A stretch of 64,000 bases of DNA from Struthio camelus (lineage: Eukaryota; Chordata; Aves; Struthioniformes; Struthionidae), in the NCBI RefSeq assembly GCF_040807025.1, contig NC_090946.1:4630001-4694000 (forward strand). Reading direction: 5' to 3'. Shown piece after piece: positions 344-61,220 of this stretch. A model generated the notes under the pieces. The model saw only the letters and a program-made list of their open reading frames with translations, was not told the DNA's origin and did not search any database. Made by a program: the position numbers and the translations under genes. The stretch's first letter is position 1. Every line of letters starts with the position of its first letter.

Positions 344-2580
344 CAGAATCACAGACTCATCTGAGGTTGGAAGGAACCTCTGGAAATTGTCTAGTCCAAG
401 TCCCCTGCTCAAAGCAGAGTCCCCTAGAGAGGGTTGCGCAGGACCTTGTTCCAGTTAGGTTTTGAACATCTCCAAGAATGGAGGCTCCACAACATGCCTG
501 GGCAACCTGTTCCAGTATTTGATCATCTCTAGAGTAATAAAAGCTTTTTCATTATGCTGAAATGGAATTTTCTGTATTTCAATTTGTGCCTATTGCCTCT
601 CGTCCTGTCACTGGGCATCACTGAGAAGAGTCTAGTTCTGTCTTCTTTACTCCCTGCTCCAACAGATACTTATATAGATTGATTAGATACTGTTAAGCCT
701 TCTCTTCTCCAGGCTAAACAATCCCCACTCTCTCAGCCTCCCTCCTAAGTCAGATGCTCCAATCCCTCAGTAATCTTTGTGGCCCTTTGCTGGGATCACT
801 GCAGTACGTTCACGTCTCTCTTGTACTGGGCGGCTCAGCACTGGACACAGCACTCCTGATGAGGTCTCACCAGAGAGAGAGCAGAGGGGAAGGATCACCT
901 CCTTTAAGCTGCTGGTAATGGTCCTCTTAATGCAGCCCAGAAAACCATTGACCTTCTTGGCCACAAGGGCACATTGCTGGCTCATGGTCAATTTGATGGC
1001 CACCAGGACTCCCAGCTCCTTCTCTGTAGGGTTGCTCTCCAGCAGGTCAGCCCACAGCCTGTACTGGTGCATGGGGTTATTCCTCCCCAGGTGCAGGACC
1101 CTGCACTTCCCATTGACCTTCATGAGATTGCTCTCCGGCCATCTCTCCAGCCTGTCCAGGTCCCTCTGAATGGCAGCACAGCCCTCTGGTTAATCAGCCA
1201 CTGGGAAGGTGATGGAGCAAATAATGCTGGACATCATTTCTAAAGACGTGAAGGACAAGGTTATCATGAGTGGATAGGATTTATGAAGGAGAAATGCCTG
1301 ATCAACCTGATAGCCTTCTATGATGATAAGACTGGCTTGGAGGATGATCACAGGACCTGGGATTCCTGAACACTGAACTTGCCAATAAAGACTAGAGGTG
1401 AAAAACAGCACTGAGTACCTCTGCTTTTTCTGTGTCCTTTATCATCAGGTCCCACCCCCCATTTAGCAACAGACCCATATTTTCCCAAGTCTTCCTTTTA
1501 TTGCCAATATACCTGTAGAATCCTTTCTTGTTGCCTTTCACATCCCACATCATATTCTACTCCAGACAGGCTTTGGCTTTCCTAGCACCATCCCTACATG
1601 CTTGAACTGTATTACTGTATTCCTGCCGGGTCATCTGGCCCTGCTTCTACCTCTTGTATGCTACCTTTTATATTTGGGTTTTATCAGGAGCTCCTTGTTC
1701 ATCCACACAGGCCTCCTGCTGCCTTTGCTTGATTGCCTGTTTCTTGGGATGGACCATTTTTGAATCTGGACGAGATGATCCTTGAAAAATCAACCAGCTG
1801 TCCCGGACCCCTCCTCTCTCCAGGGCCATATCCCATCTGAGTCTTCCATGCAGATCCCTGAGAAGGAACAGCTGCTCTCCGGAAGCCTAGTGTTGTGATC
1901 CTACCTAACGCCTTGCTCCCACCTCTCAGGATCCTGAACTGCATTATCTCACGGTCACTGTTGCCAAGGCTGCCCCCAATTTTCACATCCCTGATGAGTT
2001 CTTCCTTGTTTGTACAAATCAGATCCAGCAGAGCATCACTGCTACATTGGTCCTCAATCACCTTGATCACTGTGTCATGAAGTTATCATCAGTGCACTCC
2101 AAAAACCTCCAGGATTATTTGTGCCCTGCTATGTTGCCCCACCAGCAAATATCCATGCGGTTCAAATCCCCCATGAGGGCCAGGGCCTGCAGACATGAGG
2201 CTTCTTCCAGTTGTCTGAAGAAGGCCTCGCCTACTTCTTCCTGATCAGGTGGTGTCAATAGCAGACACCCACTCCAATGTCATCCATGTTGGTCTGTCTG
2301 CTAATCCTTAGCCATAAAGTCTCAGCTGGCTCATCAGTCATCCCTATGCATTCCTGTTGCTCTTTTACATAAAGAGTAACTCCCTCTCCTCACCTTCCTG
2401 GCCTGCCCTCCCTAAAGAGCCTGTGTCCATCCATGGCAGCACTCCAGTTATGTGAGCTATCCCACCACACCTCTGTGATCCCAATGAGCTCGTAGCCCTG
2501 CAACTGCACACAGGCCTCTAACTCTTCCTGTTTGTTCCCCATGCTACATTCATTAGTGTACAAGCACTTCAGAGAGGCAC
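344..2580 (-). mobile_element. CR1 LINE, 5'-truncated and rearranged
   Basis: Read on the minus strand, the right part (about 2580 down to 1405) encodes decayed CR1 ORF2 endonuclease and linker sequence, with recognisable pieces such as LICTNKEELIRDVKIGGSLG and GNKKGFYRYIGNKRKT. The left part (about 1190 down to 344) encodes the end of ORF2, including KCRVLHLGRNNPMHQYRL and the [11 protein letters not shown] segment. It ends in the CR1 3' tail, seen on the plus strand as GAGGTTGGAAGGAACCTCTG. Several stops and frameshifts make it inactive. Most of the reverse transcriptase domain is missing between the two parts, and a short reverse-transcriptase piece there is in the opposite direction (see 1195-1345). 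Confidence 0.9.
1195..1345 (+). mobile_element. CR1 reverse-transcriptase fragment, inverted
   Basis: The plus strand here resembles the sense strand of CR1 ORF2, with recognisable coding for ISKDVKDKV and, further on, CLINLIAFYDD. The CR1 sequence on both sides reads on the minus strand, so this piece lies inverted inside the copy. Borders are approximate. Confidence 0.65.
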
Positions 2581-43077: not shown

Positions 43078-44262
43078 AGATCAGCTGAGGTTGGAAGGGA
43101 CCTTTAGAGATCATCTAGTCCAACCCTCCTGCTCAAAGCAGGGTCAACTAGAGCAGGTTGCTTAGGACATTGTCCAGTCAGATTCTGAACATCTCAAAAA
43201 ATGGAGACTCCAAGACATGCCTGGGCAACCTGCTCCAGTGCTTCACCACCCTCACTGCAAACAATTTTTTTCTTACGCTTAAATTGAATTTCCTGGATTT
43301 CAATTTGTGCTCATCGCCTCGTTCATTCACCATATACTGCTGAGAACAGTTGGACTCCATCTTCTTCACACTCTCCCATCAGATATTCATATACATTTAT
43401 AAGATAGCCCTTGAGCTTCCTCGTCTCTAGGCTAAAAAGTCTCAGCGCTCTCAGCCTCTCCTCCTCTGTCAGATGCTCCAATCCCTTAACGATCATCATG
43501 GCCCTTTCCTGGACTGTTTACAGCAGGTCCATGTCTTTCTTGTATTGGGGAGCCCAGCACTGGACACAGCACTCCAGATGTGGCCTCACCAGGGCTGAGG
43601 AGAGGGGAAGGATCACATCCTTCAGCCTGCTGCCAATGCTCTTCCTGATGCAGCCCAGAAAACCATTGGCCTTCTTGGCCACATTGCTGACTCATGGTCA
43701 ACTTGGTGGCCACTACGATCCCCAGGTCCTTCTCTGCAGAGCTGCTCTCCAGCAGGTCAGCCCTCAGCCTGTCATGACATTATTCCTCCCTAGGTGCAGG
43801 ACTTTGCACTTTACATTGTTGCCCTTCATGAGATTCCTCTCTGCCCTTTTCTCCAGCTTGTTGAGGTCCCTCTGAATGGCAGCTCAGCCTCTCCTCCTAG
43901 TTTTGTATCATCTGCAAACCAGGTGAGAGAGCACTCTGTCCCATCATTCAGGTCACTGATGAAGATACTAAACAATATTGGCCCCTATATTAACTTCTCG
44001 GGTTACCACTAGTGACTGGCCTCCAGCTGGACTTTGCATGCTGATCACAATCATTTGAGTCCAGCAGTTCATCCAGTTTCAGTCCACCTCCAATTTCAAT
44101 TCACCTCACTGTCCACTTATCTAGTCTGCGCTTTATCACATTGTCAATGAGGATGTCAACGAGGATGTTAGGGGACAGAGCCAAAAGCCTCAATTAAGTC
44201 AAGATAAACAACATCCACCGCTCTTCCCTCATCCACCAAGCCAGTCATCTCATTGTATAAGA
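43078..44262 (-). mobile_element. CR1 LINE 3' part, inactive
   Basis: The plus strand shows the reverse complement of the CR1 tail at 43078-43140 (GAGGTTGGAAGGGACCTTTA). It then runs back through the end of ORF2, with decayed reading frames and part of the reverse-transcriptase region up to about 44262. It lies in the intron between the KNL1 leader exon and the start-codon exon. Small deletions and stops make it inactive. Confidence 0.9.
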
Positions 44263-53699: not shown

Positions 53700-54525
53700 G
53701 CGACAAGCCGGAGAAGGAGATTTTTCTTAATCCGCAGCGTTGGAGGAGTTCAGGGTTATGACCAGCGATTAAAGTAGTCGAGAAGAAAACACACTCTTGT
53801 AATTAAACTTCGATAAATCAGTTACAGCTTGTTTTTCTTCAAGCATTAGGTGAAGGAGGCAGTATTAGAGTATTTTTAGTGAGGTACCAATTGTGGAGTT
53901 TTAAGCATTTCTGTCTGGTTTGCAAATTCTCTGTAAATACATGTTATTTATAGTTTATCAAAGAGGATAATGGGACTTCCCTGATTCAACTCGCTGACTG
54001 GAACCAGACGTGCATTTCAAGAGGCTCTAGTTCCCTGGGAGAAATACCCTCTTTCTCTGTGCTTCTGTAACAAGCTCTTCAAAAGGAGAACTGCAAGCAC
54101 ATCCACTTATAAAGTTTCCATTAAAAAAAAAAGAGCCATACACATCTACAGTCCCTTTCATGAGCTTTCTGTGGTCACTTTAGACATATCCATCCGTCAG
54201 ATTTCATCCCTGAGGCAAAGAAAAACCAACAGTTACTATCACACATTTGCCTTCAGCTCAGTGACAAAAATGAATATAGATAGTGTTTTTGAAAGCAGGC
54301 AGATTCCAAAAGAGGCCTGAGCACTCAGTCTGCGATCCCTATCTAACACAGGATATATGCTACTCTCCTGCTGTGCCTTACCAGCTAAGCCTCTTTCTTC
54401 TGTCTTTTACAAACAGCATCTGCTAGGATTCCAGAAATCTGTCTGTCAGTAATGCCAGGAGTCTAAGAAAGCAAGGTCACAGGGACAGCTGTGAGGAGAA
54501 ACATTCCTCAAGGGAGAGCAAACTT
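53700..54525. other. 3' region of PCMT1-like gene / spacer
   Basis: About 800 bases lie between the RPUSD2 CpG island and the stop codon of the PCMT1-like gene. They probably contain its 3' UTR on the minus strand. No clear polyadenylation hexamer and no other gene were recognised. Confidence 0.55.
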
Positions 54526-54699
54526 TTACCGAGGCCACTGCTTTTCCTTATCTGTCAGAGGAACATAGATCACACCCATCAGTTGTGTTTCGATGATCTG
54601 CCCATCGCTGGTTTTGTCATATTGCATCAGAACTTGGTTTGCACCCTCGGGACCAACAGGCAATATTAACCGGCCTCCTGGCTTCAATTCATTCAGCAA
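54526..54699 (-). CDS. PCMT1-like last coding exon
   Basis: This exon encodes [20 protein letters not shown], then [20 protein letters not shown] and [17 protein letters not shown] before TAA. Human PCMT1 continues a few residues past this point. Confidence 0.97.
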
Positions 54700-57600
54700 C
54701 TGGCAAGCAGAGAAATCCGTATCAGCAGAGCCAAAACGAAATAACTCCCCCACGCCCTCAAAAAAGACAACAAAAATAAGCCAAGTTGTGAAGGTCATGA
54801 CACTTTCAAAGGCACAAGGTTGCCAGCTTCATATAAAGAGCTGGCACACAGAAAAAGGAAGATTCCTGTGGTTCCCCAATTATTAATCACAGGTACTGAT
54901 GATACCAACTGCAACAGACATCTGACACGATCATTCTTACCTCCTTCGGCACAGTTGCTGCTGCTGCTCCAACGTGAATGGCATCATAAGGAGCCTCTTC
55001 AGGGTATCCCTGCCTGCCATCTCCAACTACAGGTGGGGAAAAAGCATGCAGAATCAGGTAAGGCTGGATAAAGTGCAGATAACTCTACTCCCAAATAAGT
55101 CTTCAAATGAAAGGATACAGGAAAACTAGATGAATATTTTGTAGCAAGCTTGTGATGGCAACAGGAATTCCTAAATCAGAGCACTGACCTCTCTGCTAGA
55201 AATAGTGTTGGGTTACTTTCTAAAAAGGAGGAAGAGATTTCTGGAACCTGACCATGCTAGAAGAACGATTGTCAAAGCCAGGATGGCCTTTAAATAACAT
55301 GGTGACTTTGTGCAGACTTCCCATTCCAGGTACAGAAAAAATGGACCCAAGTTATCCAGAAAAGAGTATGTGTAGTCCTGTTCAAATACACTGAAAGCCA
55401 CATGTGGTATAACTAGTCTCCTCTGAAGAGGATCTCTTCCTGAATAGTCACTACACACTCAGAAATAAAAGTATGGCAAGACTACTCCTAGCATTAAACA
55501 GTTCTTGCTCAGACCACAGTGTTCTTAATCAGTACTACACAGTTCTTAGCCAATGGTTTCAGGCAACGTTGTGGCAAGCAGCTCAGACTTAACACAAACT
55601 AGAACTGCTTTGAGGAGTAGAGTTCTGCAGACAGGCAGAGCTAATGAACATTTACAGAAGGGAAGAAGCGTGAAGATCCCAGATAGCTCACCCACAAGTT
55701 TTACACGGCCAGAGCTGAGCAAAGTTGGATCATCTTCTTGGACATTTCTGATGGATTCATGTACCAGCTCCTTAATGTGTTCTACACCCACAGCTTTCCC
55801 TGTTGGGCCCATCTGAAAACAAAAAACAGCAAACATACATTATGCTATATGTACAGGGATGCATTTTATAGGGCAATCTACCATGGGTATTGGAGAATTT
55901 CAGGAAGAAATTTAAAAGCAGCATTTTTGACCAAGGTACAAGTCCTGTGCCACCTTGGTTTTAAGGCGGAGTAGTCCCAGTTATACTAGCTACTTAACAG
56001 ATACACAGGCATTTCATATGGGGATTCCTAGTATTCCTTCATTTCCAAATAAATGATTATTTGGTAGAATTGACAGCTTCCTTGGCAGACCCAGTTCTTG
56101 ACTAAGTAACCAGCCTCCTAAGAAGGATAATTCAATCCGCTTTCTAGCGCATTACAGAAAATGCACTGAGGAGTTTAGAAAACAGACTACTACTACTTAG
56201 GAAACAAAGTAAGAAACAGAACCTACAATGGGCTTGCACAGTATATTAATACACGCCTCTTGATCTGGACTGAGTTAATATACAACCTTTGGCAGATACA
56301 ATATCCATTTACATTCCAAAAATCACTGTATTTATTTTTACTGAGAGCTGGTAAGAGAAGAAAAGACAGACAGCCTGTTCAAGCTACCTGTCGTGATATA
56401 CATTACTACTTAGTAATGACACCCTGTGCTCAGCTTACCATCCTGGCGAAGCAAGCTGTAAGATATCCACTTCCAGACCCAATATCTAATGCCTTGGCAC
56501 CTTCCACAAGCTGATCCTTCAGCAGTTCCAGGGCATGGGCATGCTGTGTAGACAGTTACAAGAAGGTGTGCAGCACCGCATTTACATGAAGCTACATATC
56601 ATTTCTCACATATCTCTGCCATTTACACAGTTATTAGCTTCCTCCAAAAATTATTAGTTTCTTAACACTAAGCATTATCTGCTCTGATTTAAATACAGCA
56701 TGCCTACATTTTGTCTGACACATTCAAAGTGAAGTCCCAGTGTTTGATCAGAAACACTTTTTGCAGAACAGCATTTGGGAAGTGTTCTAGTAGTAGGATA
56801 GGAAATAGGAGAAAGGTCTCGTGCAAAAAACAAGACAACACTCATGGTTAGCCAGTAACACAGAATTCCTGCCTGAGCATAAAAAAGCCTCACGTGTACA
56901 GTGTCTAAAGAAACAAGCACAATAATCATGCACAGGAGACCTGTTTCACCTTTTTATTATAGTATTTAAGTAAAAAAACAAAACAAAAACCCAAAAAACC
57001 AATTCCCTCCATTTCCATTAAAAGTGGAAAGTTTCATCTCACCATATGCGGTGCACTGATTGTAGCCTTGTATCCTAAAAGGAAACCAGTGACAAAGTTA
57101 CATGCTGGTAAGAATGAAGGTGATAATGTCCAATTAATTATCATCTTCTCCAATGTAAGTAGTTTCTTATTCTTCTTTCCAGACCGCTAAAAATATCAAA
57201 AGGCTCTTCTCTTGCCTCACTAAAGCACTGCACTGACTTAAAATTTCCATCTGTCAGATTGCTAATGAGAGCAAGATAGCTTTGCAATGCTTAGTACCAA
57301 ACTGTTTCAACCTCCAAAGCTCTCCTGCCTCATTCATCAAAATGCTCTTCAGCTATCATAGCTTACTTTTGTTTCCACTCCATAAACATGATTCACAGCA
57401 ATCAGTGAATATTTTGGACTTGGAAAAGCTATATAGATCTTTCCTCTACACTGGCAGGAATTTACTTTTGCTTCAGTTAAGTAAGAAGAGCCAAAGAACA
57501 GTCCTGATATCAAGCCAAAAATACCTGTTCACCAAAACAACTGTTTAAGCTACCAGATGACGAAGCTGGGGCACAGTTGCGGACAAGTTTCAGAGCTAGA

Positions 57601-60123
57601 AATGAAGTGAGTTGTAAGGGGTATCCATCTGCTTTTTCTGTGGAACACATGCATAGAAACATTACTCATTTCTGCTGAGACATTCAGCAGAAAACTAAGA
57701 TTTCTGTACTGATAGCCAACTCTGGGGATAATTTCCAAGTCTGAGAGCCTCAGAGTTTCAATAGAAGGGTATAGCAGCCAGCCTTTTGACACCATGACCA
57801 CAGACTATAGAGAAATTGAGTTTTAGTTCTGAACACGTTCATGCCATATGTAGCTGAAATATTATCAGATACTTGCATCATTTTCACTTAAGTAATCTAC
57901 AGTTAACAACAGCTTATATGAACAAAGAAAATGCAAATTGCATCCACTCTCAAGAGACAGCAATTCCTGAGAACCCAGGAATCCCCAAGGGAAAACAGCA
58001 GGACCCACCCTTCCCTGAAACTGTCTAACCAATCAAAAAAATTTCCTAAAAATCAAACCCCTGAAGTCTGATGTAGCGCTCTGTGTGGTTTTAGCACATC
58101 TCAGGATTTTTCATCTCTATTACTACTTATATTAGAAGAATGGTGCTGAGAGAAAGTCTGATATTTCTTGCTCTTGTATTATTTCAAGTAAGTTTTGGAT
58201 CTAAAATCATTACTATGTTTCTGAGGATACCTGGGATTGTGCATCAGGTAGGGAAACACTGATTTTTTTTTTTTTAAAAGCATGGAAAGGGAAAACCAAA
58301 AACAAAGCATAAAAACAATGTATTTACCACCCTTGTTAAGAATGCTTCTATACATAAAACATAATGTTTATATTTGTGGGGGTGAGAAAAATCCTTGAAT
58401 GCAGAGGGTTGGCATCCCATTCAGTGGGACAGGAGCACAATTTAAGAAGAGGAACCACTCTCCTCCGTTTTCCAAATAAGTATTTTTGCCTCACCTCACA
58501 GGCTCCTGTTCAGTTGTTCTGAATACCCATAATTACTCCTACTAAAGTCAGTAAGATTAGAGCGTTCACCGCACCTACAACTCAAACCAACAGCTTTCTC
58601 AGCTCTGCAAGAAAGAATGTACTAACAAAGGCTGGACAGAAAAAAAAAAAATCTTTATTCCACTTGTCCTTATCATTCTTCAAAAGATGCTTTCTCTTTT
58701 AGGATAGTGGGAAGAATACAGTGCAAGTTCTAGCCTTTTACAGGCAGGTGCTTATTCAATTCTTCTGATGGAATTCACAAGTAGATCCAAGGCAGTTACA
58801 ACAGGTAACAGATCCCACTGTTGAAATACAGATGGAAGTTGATCTTACTTGAGTCATGTTAAAATTCTGTCACTGTTTTGAGGAGAGAACGTCTAGCATG
58901 GGGAACTCAGTCCCGCCAATCCATCTCAGGCCTCTCTTCACTGTGACTAGCATAGTCAATGCAAACACCATAAAAGCAATGATACCTTGTCTTAAGTTAC
59001 TCACCAATAGACTGAGGAGAATCCATATATGGGAAATACTTGATATAGTGACCTCTGTCAGTAGCCAATAATACATCAAAGACCCGCTGGGATTTAATTA
59101 TTCCTTTTTCTGGAAGAAAGAGGGATAAAGAAGAGACAGTCCTCAGGATTATAGCAAGAAGAGATTCAGAAGGGAACACAGTTCAGGGAGTTAGCAGTAA
59201 AACTGAAAGCTCCTTAAATAAGTGATCTGAGAACAGACAAAAAGCAGAACTGAAGGTGCATGCTTTTCAGTTTCTGGTACACAGAATGAAATCATTTGAT
59301 AGTCTCAACCATCAGCATAGCCTCCTACACAGAATGGTTAGTTACAACCACAATATTTCTGTGACTGTCAAATGTAATGAAAGATAAGTAGAGTCACGCT
59401 TTCACTCCTGAAAGTGGAAACTTTAGTCCAGGTTTAAGGAACATCGGCAGGGTAGATGAACTGAAGTTAAGAGCAACGACTGCAGAAACATTCATCATTC
59501 CTTTATTCCTCATCTCTGAGGGAACTCTTACAGGGGAAGACCAGCATGGCTTCAGCAGCAGAGGAAATTCAAAGCCACTTTTAAGCACGCTCCAGAATGC
59601 TGTCCAGCACAGAGTAGTAACACCAAGCATTACTCCAATCCCAGGACATCTATCTAGAGGTGACAGACTGCACAGAAGCTCAGCTTCTACAGGCTGACAG
59701 TGATGTCATCTTCTGCAGCATTTAAAAAAAGTTGCTACTCATTTATCACTTCAGGGGGAGTAGAAGGAAGGTCACAGATAGTCTTTCCTGCTACTTCTAG
59801 CATAACATCTTGTTTCTAATTATAAATAGAATAAGTTCAGACTGGGACAAATACTGAAATCCAGGCAGTTATCAGCTCAGACGCTTTGGAATGAACAGCA
59901 TTACAGTCTGTCACTGCATAACATTAAATACCTTTACACTAAAGTAATAACAAATTATCAGCCGTTTTTAAACATTTGCCTGGAATAGGAGCTTGTGTTG
60001 TTACTCACTGTACAGATTGTTGACTAGCTCACGATGCGTCTTTCCACTTGAAGTCCAGGCCATTGTCCTTGCAAACAGCAGTCCCATGAGTGTAAATATA
60101 GCACAGTACAGCAGATACCTCAT
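54526..60123 (-). CDS. PCMT1-like methyltransferase with signal peptide
   Basis: Protein-L-isoaspartate (D-aspartate) O-methyltransferase uses S-adenosylmethionine to methylate damaged isoaspartyl residues and start their repair. Seven minus-strand exons (60123-60009, 59109-59005, 57074-57043, 56543-56439, 55812-55692, 55026-54941, 54699-54526) join in phase to 245 residues. Motifs by residue: [10 protein letters not shown] about 65-74, [10 protein letters not shown] about 77-86, SAM-binding DIGSGSGYL 104-112, VVGDGR 160-165, [12 protein letters not shown] about 171-182, and [12 protein letters not shown] in the last exon, which ends [12 protein letters not shown]. From residue 21 ([13 protein letters not shown]) it aligns with cytosolic PCMT1, which is 227 residues in human. 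Before it lies [20 protein letters not shown], a hydrophobic ER signal peptide or anchor, with an in-frame TAG further upstream. No N-glycosylation sequon and no KDEL-like ending were seen. It is a PCMT1 paralogue; fish have a similar pcmtl gene. I know of none between RPUSD2 and CCDC32 in human. Confidence 0.93.
54941..55026 (-). CDS. PCMT1-like sixth coding exon
   Basis: This exon encodes [20 protein letters not shown] and then AAAATVPKE, matching PCMT1 motif II. Confidence 0.96.
55692..55812 (-). CDS. PCMT1-like fifth coding exon
   Basis: This exon encodes [20 protein letters not shown] and then [30 protein letters not shown] is the family's second SAM-contact segment. Confidence 0.97.
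56439..56543 (-). CDS. PCMT1-like fourth coding exon (SAM motif I)
   Basis: This 35-codon exon encodes [20 protein letters not shown] and then [27 protein letters not shown] is the glycine-rich SAM-binding loop. Confidence 0.97.
57043..57074 (-). CDS. PCMT1-like third coding exon
   Basis: This 32-base micro-exon encodes [11 protein letters not shown], the substrate-site segment of the family. Confidence 0.95.
59005..59109 (-). CDS. PCMT1-like second coding exon
   Basis: This exon encodes [20 protein letters not shown] and then [14 protein letters not shown]. It ends in phase 1. Confidence 0.95.
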
Positions 60124-60178
60124 CCCACAGAAACGCACAGTGGCCTTCCAGGCCTGGCCTGTCTATCAGAGATAGGCA
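60009..60178 (-). CDS. PCMT1-like first coding exon
   Basis: The acceptor is TTTGAAG before 60178. The first ATG is at 60123 (context TGTGGGATGA). A second in-frame ATG at 60063 has the stronger context GGACAATGG and matches the usual PCMT1 start MAW. The exon ends LVNNLY in phase 1 before GTGAGT. Confidence 0.88.
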
Positions 60179-60519
60179 CTTCAAATGAAAGAAAAAAAGG
60201 GGGGGGGTTATTGCTTGACTGACACCCCAAAACCTCACCTTTTCTCACTGTAATTTGAACTCACACTTATTACACTATTCAAAACACAGCAGAGTTTGCA
60301 TGCTCCAAGGGACAAGTTATCAGCCCCAGAAAATCAGCACCTCCGACTTGATTATATGCAAGAATTGGAAACAAGCAGCCACCAGCTAGCTACAGCACTC
60401 CATGTTTAAAGCCAAACAGCGCATTACACCTAAAGCGGTTCCTTCGGGCAAGATTAAAGTCCTCCAAAAGCCCCCAGCAATCCTAAGCAGGGCAGCCGCG
60501 GCCTTGCTGCGTAAAGCAG

Positions 60520-61220
60520 GGCCGAGAGGGCTCGGCCCCAGCTCAGGGCAGGTCCCGGGCACCGTGAGGCGGGCCGGGCCGGGCCGCTCCGCCCTCCCTC
60601 CCTCCCCACGGCGGGAACGCCGGCGACACCAGCCCCTCCGGGAAGAACAGGGCAACGGTAACGGCTGCACGTCTCTACACTCACCTGCGCAGCCACACTA
60701 GAGCTCCGCCTCCCCCAGCCTGTCGTTACGAGTAACAGCGAAAACCGCCCCCCGGGGCAGACACACTTCCGCCCTTCTCCAAGATGACACCGTAGCGAAG
60801 TCAAGAGCGCTCCCCCCCCCCCCCACCCCCGCGCCCCTATATCCCCGCCCCCCACTAGGCGGGGAGGCTAATAGGCGGCCTCCCGCTGCCGGCTGATTGG
60901 CTGCGCCTGGGTGCCAGTCGGTGCGGGGGGAGAGGTCATTGCGGGGTGCTCCGCGTTTACAAGCACCGATCAGTGGCTGAGGGCGGGTGCGGCCTCCAGC
61001 GCCCCGCGGAAGAGGGTCTTGGCGCCGAGCCGAGCCTCGGCGGCCGCGGGGGGGCGGCAGTGGCCGCAGCCTGCGGGGGGACGGGGCAGAGGGAGGCGAC
61101 CCGAGAGCCGGGGGCACCGCGGTGACGAGAAGGGTCGCTTAAGGAGCCTAGAGAGCAAAGGGGCCGGGGGGGGGGAGAGGGAGAGGAGTCCTGCTGTTCG
61201 TGACTTATTTCTGCCCGCAG
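60520..61220. promoter_or_regulatory. Bidirectional PCMT1-like/CCDC32 promoter
   Basis: This CpG island lies between two divergent genes. On the minus side, a donor (CAG then GTGAGT, exon end 60685) marks an untranslated first exon of the PCMT1-like gene. On the plus side, the acceptor CTGCCCGCAG at 61211-61220 precedes the CCDC32 start, so CCDC32 also has a leader intron. An inverted CCAAT box (GATTGG at 60895-60900) sits between them, near a long C run (about 60811-60830). Confidence 0.75.

Follow-up and report, generated by a model that had tools for sequence, protein, structure and literature searches.

Does the locus between RPUSD2 and CCDC32 encode a second isoaspartyl methyltransferase, and is this enzyme directed to the secretory pathway? 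The window, i.e., the whole stretch of 64,000 nucleotides that was analysed, corresponds to positions 4630001-4694000 of contig C5 in a genome of 1.45 Gb, which places the gene at C5:4.68M. It was found that seven coding exons with GT/AG borders lie on the minus strand of the window between 54526 and 60123, and that the joined 738 nt encode 245 residues and a stop. The exons and the signals inside them are listed below in the order of transcription (a slash marks a splice border).

60685..60800, minus strand: predicted non-coding exon 1, from a reading of splice sites, with donor GCGCAG/GTGAGT and 3′ end at 60685; 60800 is a nominal 5′ limit only.
60009..60158, minus strand: exon 2, the first coding exon, with an acceptor after CAG and coding from 60123.
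60064..60123, minus strand: hydrophobic extension of 20 codons, whose AUG (context GGGATGA) is the earliest in the predicted mRNA.
60061..60063, minus strand: internal ATG in the context ACAATGG, where PCMT1 normally starts (MAW...), as aligned to human 1I1N and fly 1R18.
59005..59109, minus strand: coding exon of 105 nt, equal in length in PCMT1 of the same genome.
57043..57074, minus strand: coding exon of 32 nt with the substrate motif TISAPHM; length shared with PCMT1 of the same genome.
56439..56543, minus strand: coding exon of 105 nt with the SAM motif; length shared likewise.
55692..55812, minus strand: coding exon of 121 nt; length shared likewise.
54941..55026, minus strand: coding exon of 86 nt; length shared likewise.
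54526..54699, minus strand: exon 8 of the mRNA, the seventh coding exon, with the read-through end QWPR and TAA at 54528-54526.
54528..54529, minus strand: potential donor GT, CG/GTAAAAGT; PCMT1 of the same genome has AG/GTGGAAGTGA at the same place.
54197..54209, minus strand: last exon (the eighth coding one), CAG/GGATGAAATCTGA; if spliced, it would give a QWPRDEI end and 248 residues. The PCMT1 counterpart is CAG/GGATGAATTGTAA, which gives RDEL.

The first-pass annotation had described a complete PCMT1-like gene at this place, with a first ATG that adds 20 residues before the normal PCMT1 start. The intact exons, the match to the PCMT profile, and the neighbours identified with Pfam confirmed the gene, and the spliced translation confirmed its N-terminus. 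Two exons were absent from that annotation, namely the predicted non-coding exon ending at 60685 and the exon at 54209-54197. Exon 2 has a second possible acceptor, which would move the exon start to 60178. As for the neighbours, RPUSD2 (pseudouridine synthase domain) lies downstream on the minus strand, CCDC32 is on the plus strand and starts upstream of the PCMT-like gene, and KNL1-type MELT repeats are more distant in the window. The interval 60450-61200 between the divergent starts of the PCMT-like gene and CCDC32 is GC-rich (GC 0.70 and 0.63 in 500-base steps); the predicted exon 1 sits inside this stretch, which is common to the CCDC32 start and is probably a shared two-way promoter. Neither AATAAA nor ATTAAA was found within 2.5 kb downstream of the gene; the weaker hexamers TATAAA and GATAAA occur at 53952-53959, just ahead of the RPUSD2 start region. 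Elsewhere in the window, open frames at 767-1189 (minus strand) and 43408-43875 (plus strand) look like the end of a reverse transcriptase, presumably of a CR1-type LINE, as would be expected in a bird or a reptile.

Is the product an intact member of the family? The Pfam PCMT profile (PF01135) was matched from position 3 to 210 of 210 with an E value of 5.1e-78, and the best solved match was human PCMT1 (1I1N) with an E value of 4.6e-106; both values were obtained with a 247-residue join, which has two junction residues more than the 245-residue protein. The window protein is identical to human PCMT1 at 166 of 225 positions (73.8%). Among 66 columns that are invariant in four PCMTs (PCMT1 of this genome, human, fly, and Plasmodium), 63 are kept, and the departures are D26Q, M32L, and V85I in alignment numbering. 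Two such genes, pcmt and pcmtl (NP_957062.1), are described for zebrafish in excerpts of Soliman et al. (2021; PMC7859441), where both purified proteins methylate an isoaspartyl peptide. Since zebrafish Pcmtl is active and the conserved residues are kept, it is highly probable that the window gene encodes an intact PCMT-family enzyme with isoaspartyl methyltransferase activity. No relative was found in viral contigs, either by protein search or with a splice-junction DNA pattern, while the 48 loci matched in prokaryote genomes all belong to bacteria or archaea (30-41% identity), with no stray vertebrate contig among them.

It was then asked how this gene is related to PCMT1. A profile search of the contigs found PF01135 matches on C3, C5, C2, and C18. 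The protein search of the genome gave 13 exon matches: six on C5, all of them in the window gene, five on C3, and weak ones with 33% identity on C2 and C18. The latter two genes are probably PCMTD1/2, judging from these matches. The C3 gene, read from 100 kb of sequence, is PCMT1, being identical to human PCMT1 at 210 of 225 positions (93.3%), while the window protein is identical to it at 167 of 225 (74.2%). This separate gene on C3 rules out that the window gene on C5 is the sole PCMT1 of the genome, a finding that would have gone against the paralogue proposal of the first-pass annotation. The internal exons of 105, 32, 105, 121, and 86 nt have the same lengths in both paralogues, and the first and last exons common to the two genes also agree in the length of their coding portions. 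The five equal internal exons thus indicate a duplicate made at the DNA level. A retrocopy or a pseudogene is ruled out by the kept introns and the intact frame. The window paralogue is not known from mammals. Excerpts of PMC9146343 contain the phrase 'single human PCMT gene'.

When did the two genes separate? With fly as the outgroup (216 columns), six quartet columns join the two PCMT1s against the window gene and fly, none supports a lineage-specific duplicate, and two support the third grouping. These columns, although few, favour a split of the window gene before the split of the two PCMT1s. The window protein and C3 PCMT1 share 119 and 126 of 216 residues with fly, respectively; thus, the window paralogue is not simply fast-evolving. 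In a maximum-likelihood tree of five rows, both inner branches are without support. The surroundings of the two genes were also compared. MANEC has two matches in the genome, at C3:81.93M (about 26-29 kb from the last PCMT1 exons) and at C5:40.81M. PP1_inhibitor matches lie at C3:81.89M, C5:40.80M, and also on C16; there are two DSL matches on C3 and two on C5; and TSP_C matches lie at C3:93.05M and C5:47.51M, with others on C26, C30, C40, and C41. These paired C3/C5 neighbours would fit two paralogous chromosome regions from an early vertebrate genome duplication, although the window gene at C5:4.68M is about 36 Mb away from the C5 partners. In human, RPUSD2 is presumably a near neighbour of SPINT1 and PPP1R14D, so that the distance seen here could be due to a rearrangement in this lineage. 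As a separate observation, the thrombospondin C-terminal exons at C40:44378883-44381870 and C41:63912310-63915302 have practically equal scores, and C40 and C41 could represent two haplotypes or, alternatively, a pair of sex chromosomes that have a long region in common.

It is therefore almost certain that the window gene is an intact old paralogue of PCMT1, as the first-pass annotation had guessed. Based on the equal exon lengths, the residue patterns, and the paired neighbours on C3 and C5, the duplication would predate the bird-mammal split and is probably early-vertebrate. A recent duplicate specific to this lineage, or a decaying copy of PCMT1, is very improbable. One vertebrate genome was searched, and nothing else is in favour of such an origin, which conflicts with the intact frame and splice sites and the introns that a retrocopy would lack, with the 63 of 66 invariant columns kept, and with a fly identity nearly equal to that of PCMT1 (119/216 versus 126/216). 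Moreover, PCMT1 differs far less between this genome and human (93.3% identity) than it does from the window gene (74.2%).

Is the hydrophobic N-terminus of the old paralogue a signal for the secretory pathway? In both predicted splice forms, no ATG precedes that of the leader, and an in-frame stop lies upstream of it. Its context, GGGATGA, has a purine at −3 and no G at +4, whereas ACAATGG at the MAW start is better under the usual Kozak rule. I examined 1,106 ATGG sites on both strands of the window and of 100 kb of C3. An open in-frame upstream ATG at a distance of 16-35 codons was found for 95 of them, and seven, including that of the window gene, have an equally hydrophobic upstream frame, i.e., about 6 in 1,105 by chance. 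The same count with a shorter look-back was 2 of 456. Among ATG-started open frames of 20 codons in the window, 14 of 758 are as hydrophobic as the leader. The strength of this chance test is moderate. The best 16 residues of the leader reach 2.09 on the Kyte-Doolittle scale. On a membrane-insertion scale, the best 16 residues score −1.38, which is slightly favourable, while the best 19 score +3.68, which is unfavourable.

It was revealed that C3 PCMT1 has a comparable start. In its MAW exon, an in-frame upstream ATG is followed by an Ala/Gly-rich part and then by VSALEVVSFLGKLLCAVAALKAALYLLRRVCLA directly before MAW; the best 16 residues of this extension reach 1.87, somewhat less hydrophobic than the leader.

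About C3:81,998,400 to 81,998,212, minus strand: hydrophobic extension of C3 PCMT1, 67-68 residues, in the MAW exon.

The extension of human PCMT1 presumably resembles it. Mouse Pcmt1 (NP_032812.2) was aligned from residue 59 in the excerpted part of PMC7859441; thus, mammals also have a reference form with 58 further residues. Excerpts of PMC7696048 describe a longest human PCMT1 isoform and others whose N-termini are shortened through alternative starts, as well as isoforms that end in RWK or in RDEL, and those of PMC8760697 report the detection of PCMT1 in cell supernatants. Thus, the premise of the first-pass annotation, in which a purely cytosolic PCMT1 served as the contrast, does not hold, given the extension of C3 PCMT1 and these published isoforms and supernatants. 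Its secretory or membrane form has less behind it than proposed: the leader does begin at the first predicted AUG, but the MAW AUG has the better context, equally hydrophobic frames arise by chance at about 6 in 1,105 sites, and PCMT1 shares the extension. An ER form of the window protein is plausible, and a secretory form is a possibility shared with PCMT1 rather than a distinguishing feature of the window gene.

A substantial possibility, though not the reading preferred here, is that the old paralogue is purely cytosolic or nuclear and that the leader is a chance open frame, which is translated little or not at all or is removed by another transcription start. This would fit the better context of the second AUG, the six or so other ATGG sites in 1,105 with an equally hydrophobic upstream frame, and the TargetP result given in excerpts of PMC7859441, in which neither zebrafish reference protein (Pcmt or Pcmtl) has a signal peptide. 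It is less easily reconciled with two features: no other ATG precedes the leader ATG, with its purine at −3, in the mRNA as predicted after splicing, and the PCMT1 paralogue likewise carries a hydrophobic extension that runs in frame up to MAW.

The C-terminus bears on the same question. In C3 PCMT1, read-through of the last donor gives QWSRWK, and splicing to CAG/GGATGAATTGTAA 7.5 kb downstream gives RDEL. The window gene has CG/GTAAAAGT at the same place, and read-through stops after QWPR. At 316-320 bases downstream lies TTTTTCTTTGCCTCAG/GGATGAAATCTGA, which would give QWPRDEI if spliced. Strict DEL or WK end patterns were not found downstream of the last shared exon; it was a broader acceptor scan that gave RDEI. 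On the two strands of the window and of 100 kb of C3 there are 1,597 acceptor-like sites, and RDEx followed by a stop is encoded after only 2 of them, namely at the PCMT1 exon and at the last exon of the window gene. The latter is thus strongly supported as the true counterpart of the PCMT1 RDEL exon. Both possible 3′ ends are present in the DNA, as are both start codons, and both paralogues carry predicted optional hydrophobic starts and optional ends resembling ER-retrieval signals. The human retrieval motif set is given as XX(DE)(FLM) in excerpts of PMC8276033, and Leu at −1 touches the receptor according to those of PMC8248988. The spliced end of the window protein is RDEI and not a KDEL-type end with Leu (or Phe/Met) last; therefore, ER retention would be weak or lost. 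This drift of the final residue to Ile would also suit a purely cytosolic enzyme.

In the reading of the first-pass annotation, the gene would be dedicated to the secretory pathway or a membrane and repair aged proteins that lie outside the cytosol; most of its product would then carry the leader. The hydrophobic leader at the first AUG and the retrieval-like RDEI end obtained through splicing are what such an enzyme might have. Nevertheless, this reading is rather improbable: the internal AUG is strong, the ER lumen is not known to have a SAM supply, and the paralogue has the same architecture, so that nothing marks the window gene as the secreted one.

The reading that I prefer, and hold with modest confidence, is that the window gene, here called PCMTL, is an old PCMT1 paralogue whose mRNA yields products with different starts and ends. 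PCMTL, like zebrafish Pcmtl, would initiate the repair of isoaspartyl residues by methylating them with SAM as the donor. Scanning ribosomes would reach the AUG of the 20-residue leader first, in its middling context, and then the strong MAW AUG. Leaky scanning may thus produce much ordinary cytosolic enzyme and some leader-bearing enzyme for the ER membrane or lumen. As for the C-terminus, QWPR would result from read-through of the last donor, and RDEI, a weaker version of the RDEL found on PCMT1 type II, from use of the last exon. The use of either AUG, the splicing of the last exon, and any targeting are predictions from the DNA. I lean slightly towards the leader-bearing form being made at all, while its presence in the ER or its secretion in vivo is a more doubtful matter. 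It is a speculative and rather unlikely extension that both vertebrate PCMT paralogues keep an optional hydrophobic start up to MAW and an optional RDEx end, and that these two pieces jointly mark out an ER repair enzyme, in the membrane or the lumen, in addition to the cytosolic one. If true, this would explain the old puzzle of RDEL on type II PCMT1, whose usually studied form is without a signal sequence, and in animals that retain PCMTL, this copy would have a leader that looks cleavable and a looser retention.

Is PCMTL the counterpart of zebrafish pcmtl? In excerpts of PMC7859441, pcmtl exon 4 begins after residue 53 and pcmt exon 5 after residue 99. In the window gene, the exon starting in codon 54 (MAW frame) is the fourth only if the predicted non-coding exon is counted, and the fifth exon of C3 PCMT1 (the MAW exon being the first) begins after residue 99. 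An extra upstream exon relative to PCMT1 thus appears to be common to the window gene and pcmtl. Because the exon count and the DEL-type end agree, the window gene is likely to be orthologous to pcmtl. The authors consider the zebrafish pair probable paralogues from the teleost genome duplication (excerpts of PMC7859441); if the window gene is a pcmtl orthologue, this published origin needs changing. The second repair enzyme would then be early-vertebrate, retained in this lineage and missing in mammals, where PCMT1 knock-outs have been studied.

The literature search found no paper on the window gene in birds or reptiles, and among the matches listed for 'pcmtl' as a whole word, only the zebrafish study concerns the gene. 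A PCMT paralogue, PCMT1 isoforms with long N-termini and with RDEL, and the release of PCMT1 have already been published. New here are the RDEI exon, the correspondence of the optional ends between the two paralogues within one genome, and the evidence that the pcmtl gene probably predates the teleost duplication. The paired optional ends make the long-standing question of an ER form directly testable.

As for known systems, PCMTD1 and PCMTD2 share with the window protein a PCMT domain, which lies in their N-terminal part (9oma, E 2e-12); the C2 and C18 matches, to which these names probably apply, have only 33% identity to the window protein. PCMT1 (human 1I1N or the C3 copy) shares the fold family, the motifs, the exon lengths, and the position of the last splice junction with the window gene, and the C3 copy has likewise an optional hydrophobic N-terminal extension and an RDEx end via the last exon. 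In contrast, 26% of the residues differ, and the ends are QWPR or RDEI in the window protein versus QWSRWK or RDEL in PCMT1. The leaders also differ: the window gene has 20 residues preceded by a non-coding exon, whereas C3 PCMT1 has 67-68 residues, Ala/Gly-rich at first, inside the MAW exon. Zebrafish pcmtl is a second PCMT gene beside pcmt, as the window gene is beside PCMT1. In excerpts of PMC7859441, zebrafish Pcmtl is about 69% identical to human PCMT1 and ends in GDEL, compared with 73.8% and RDEI for the window protein. A hydrophobic start is not described for Pcmtl in these excerpts, whereas the window gene has a predicted leader. Finally, the zebrafish pair was dated to the teleost duplication in the same excerpts, while the window gene, if orthologous, argues for an older origin.
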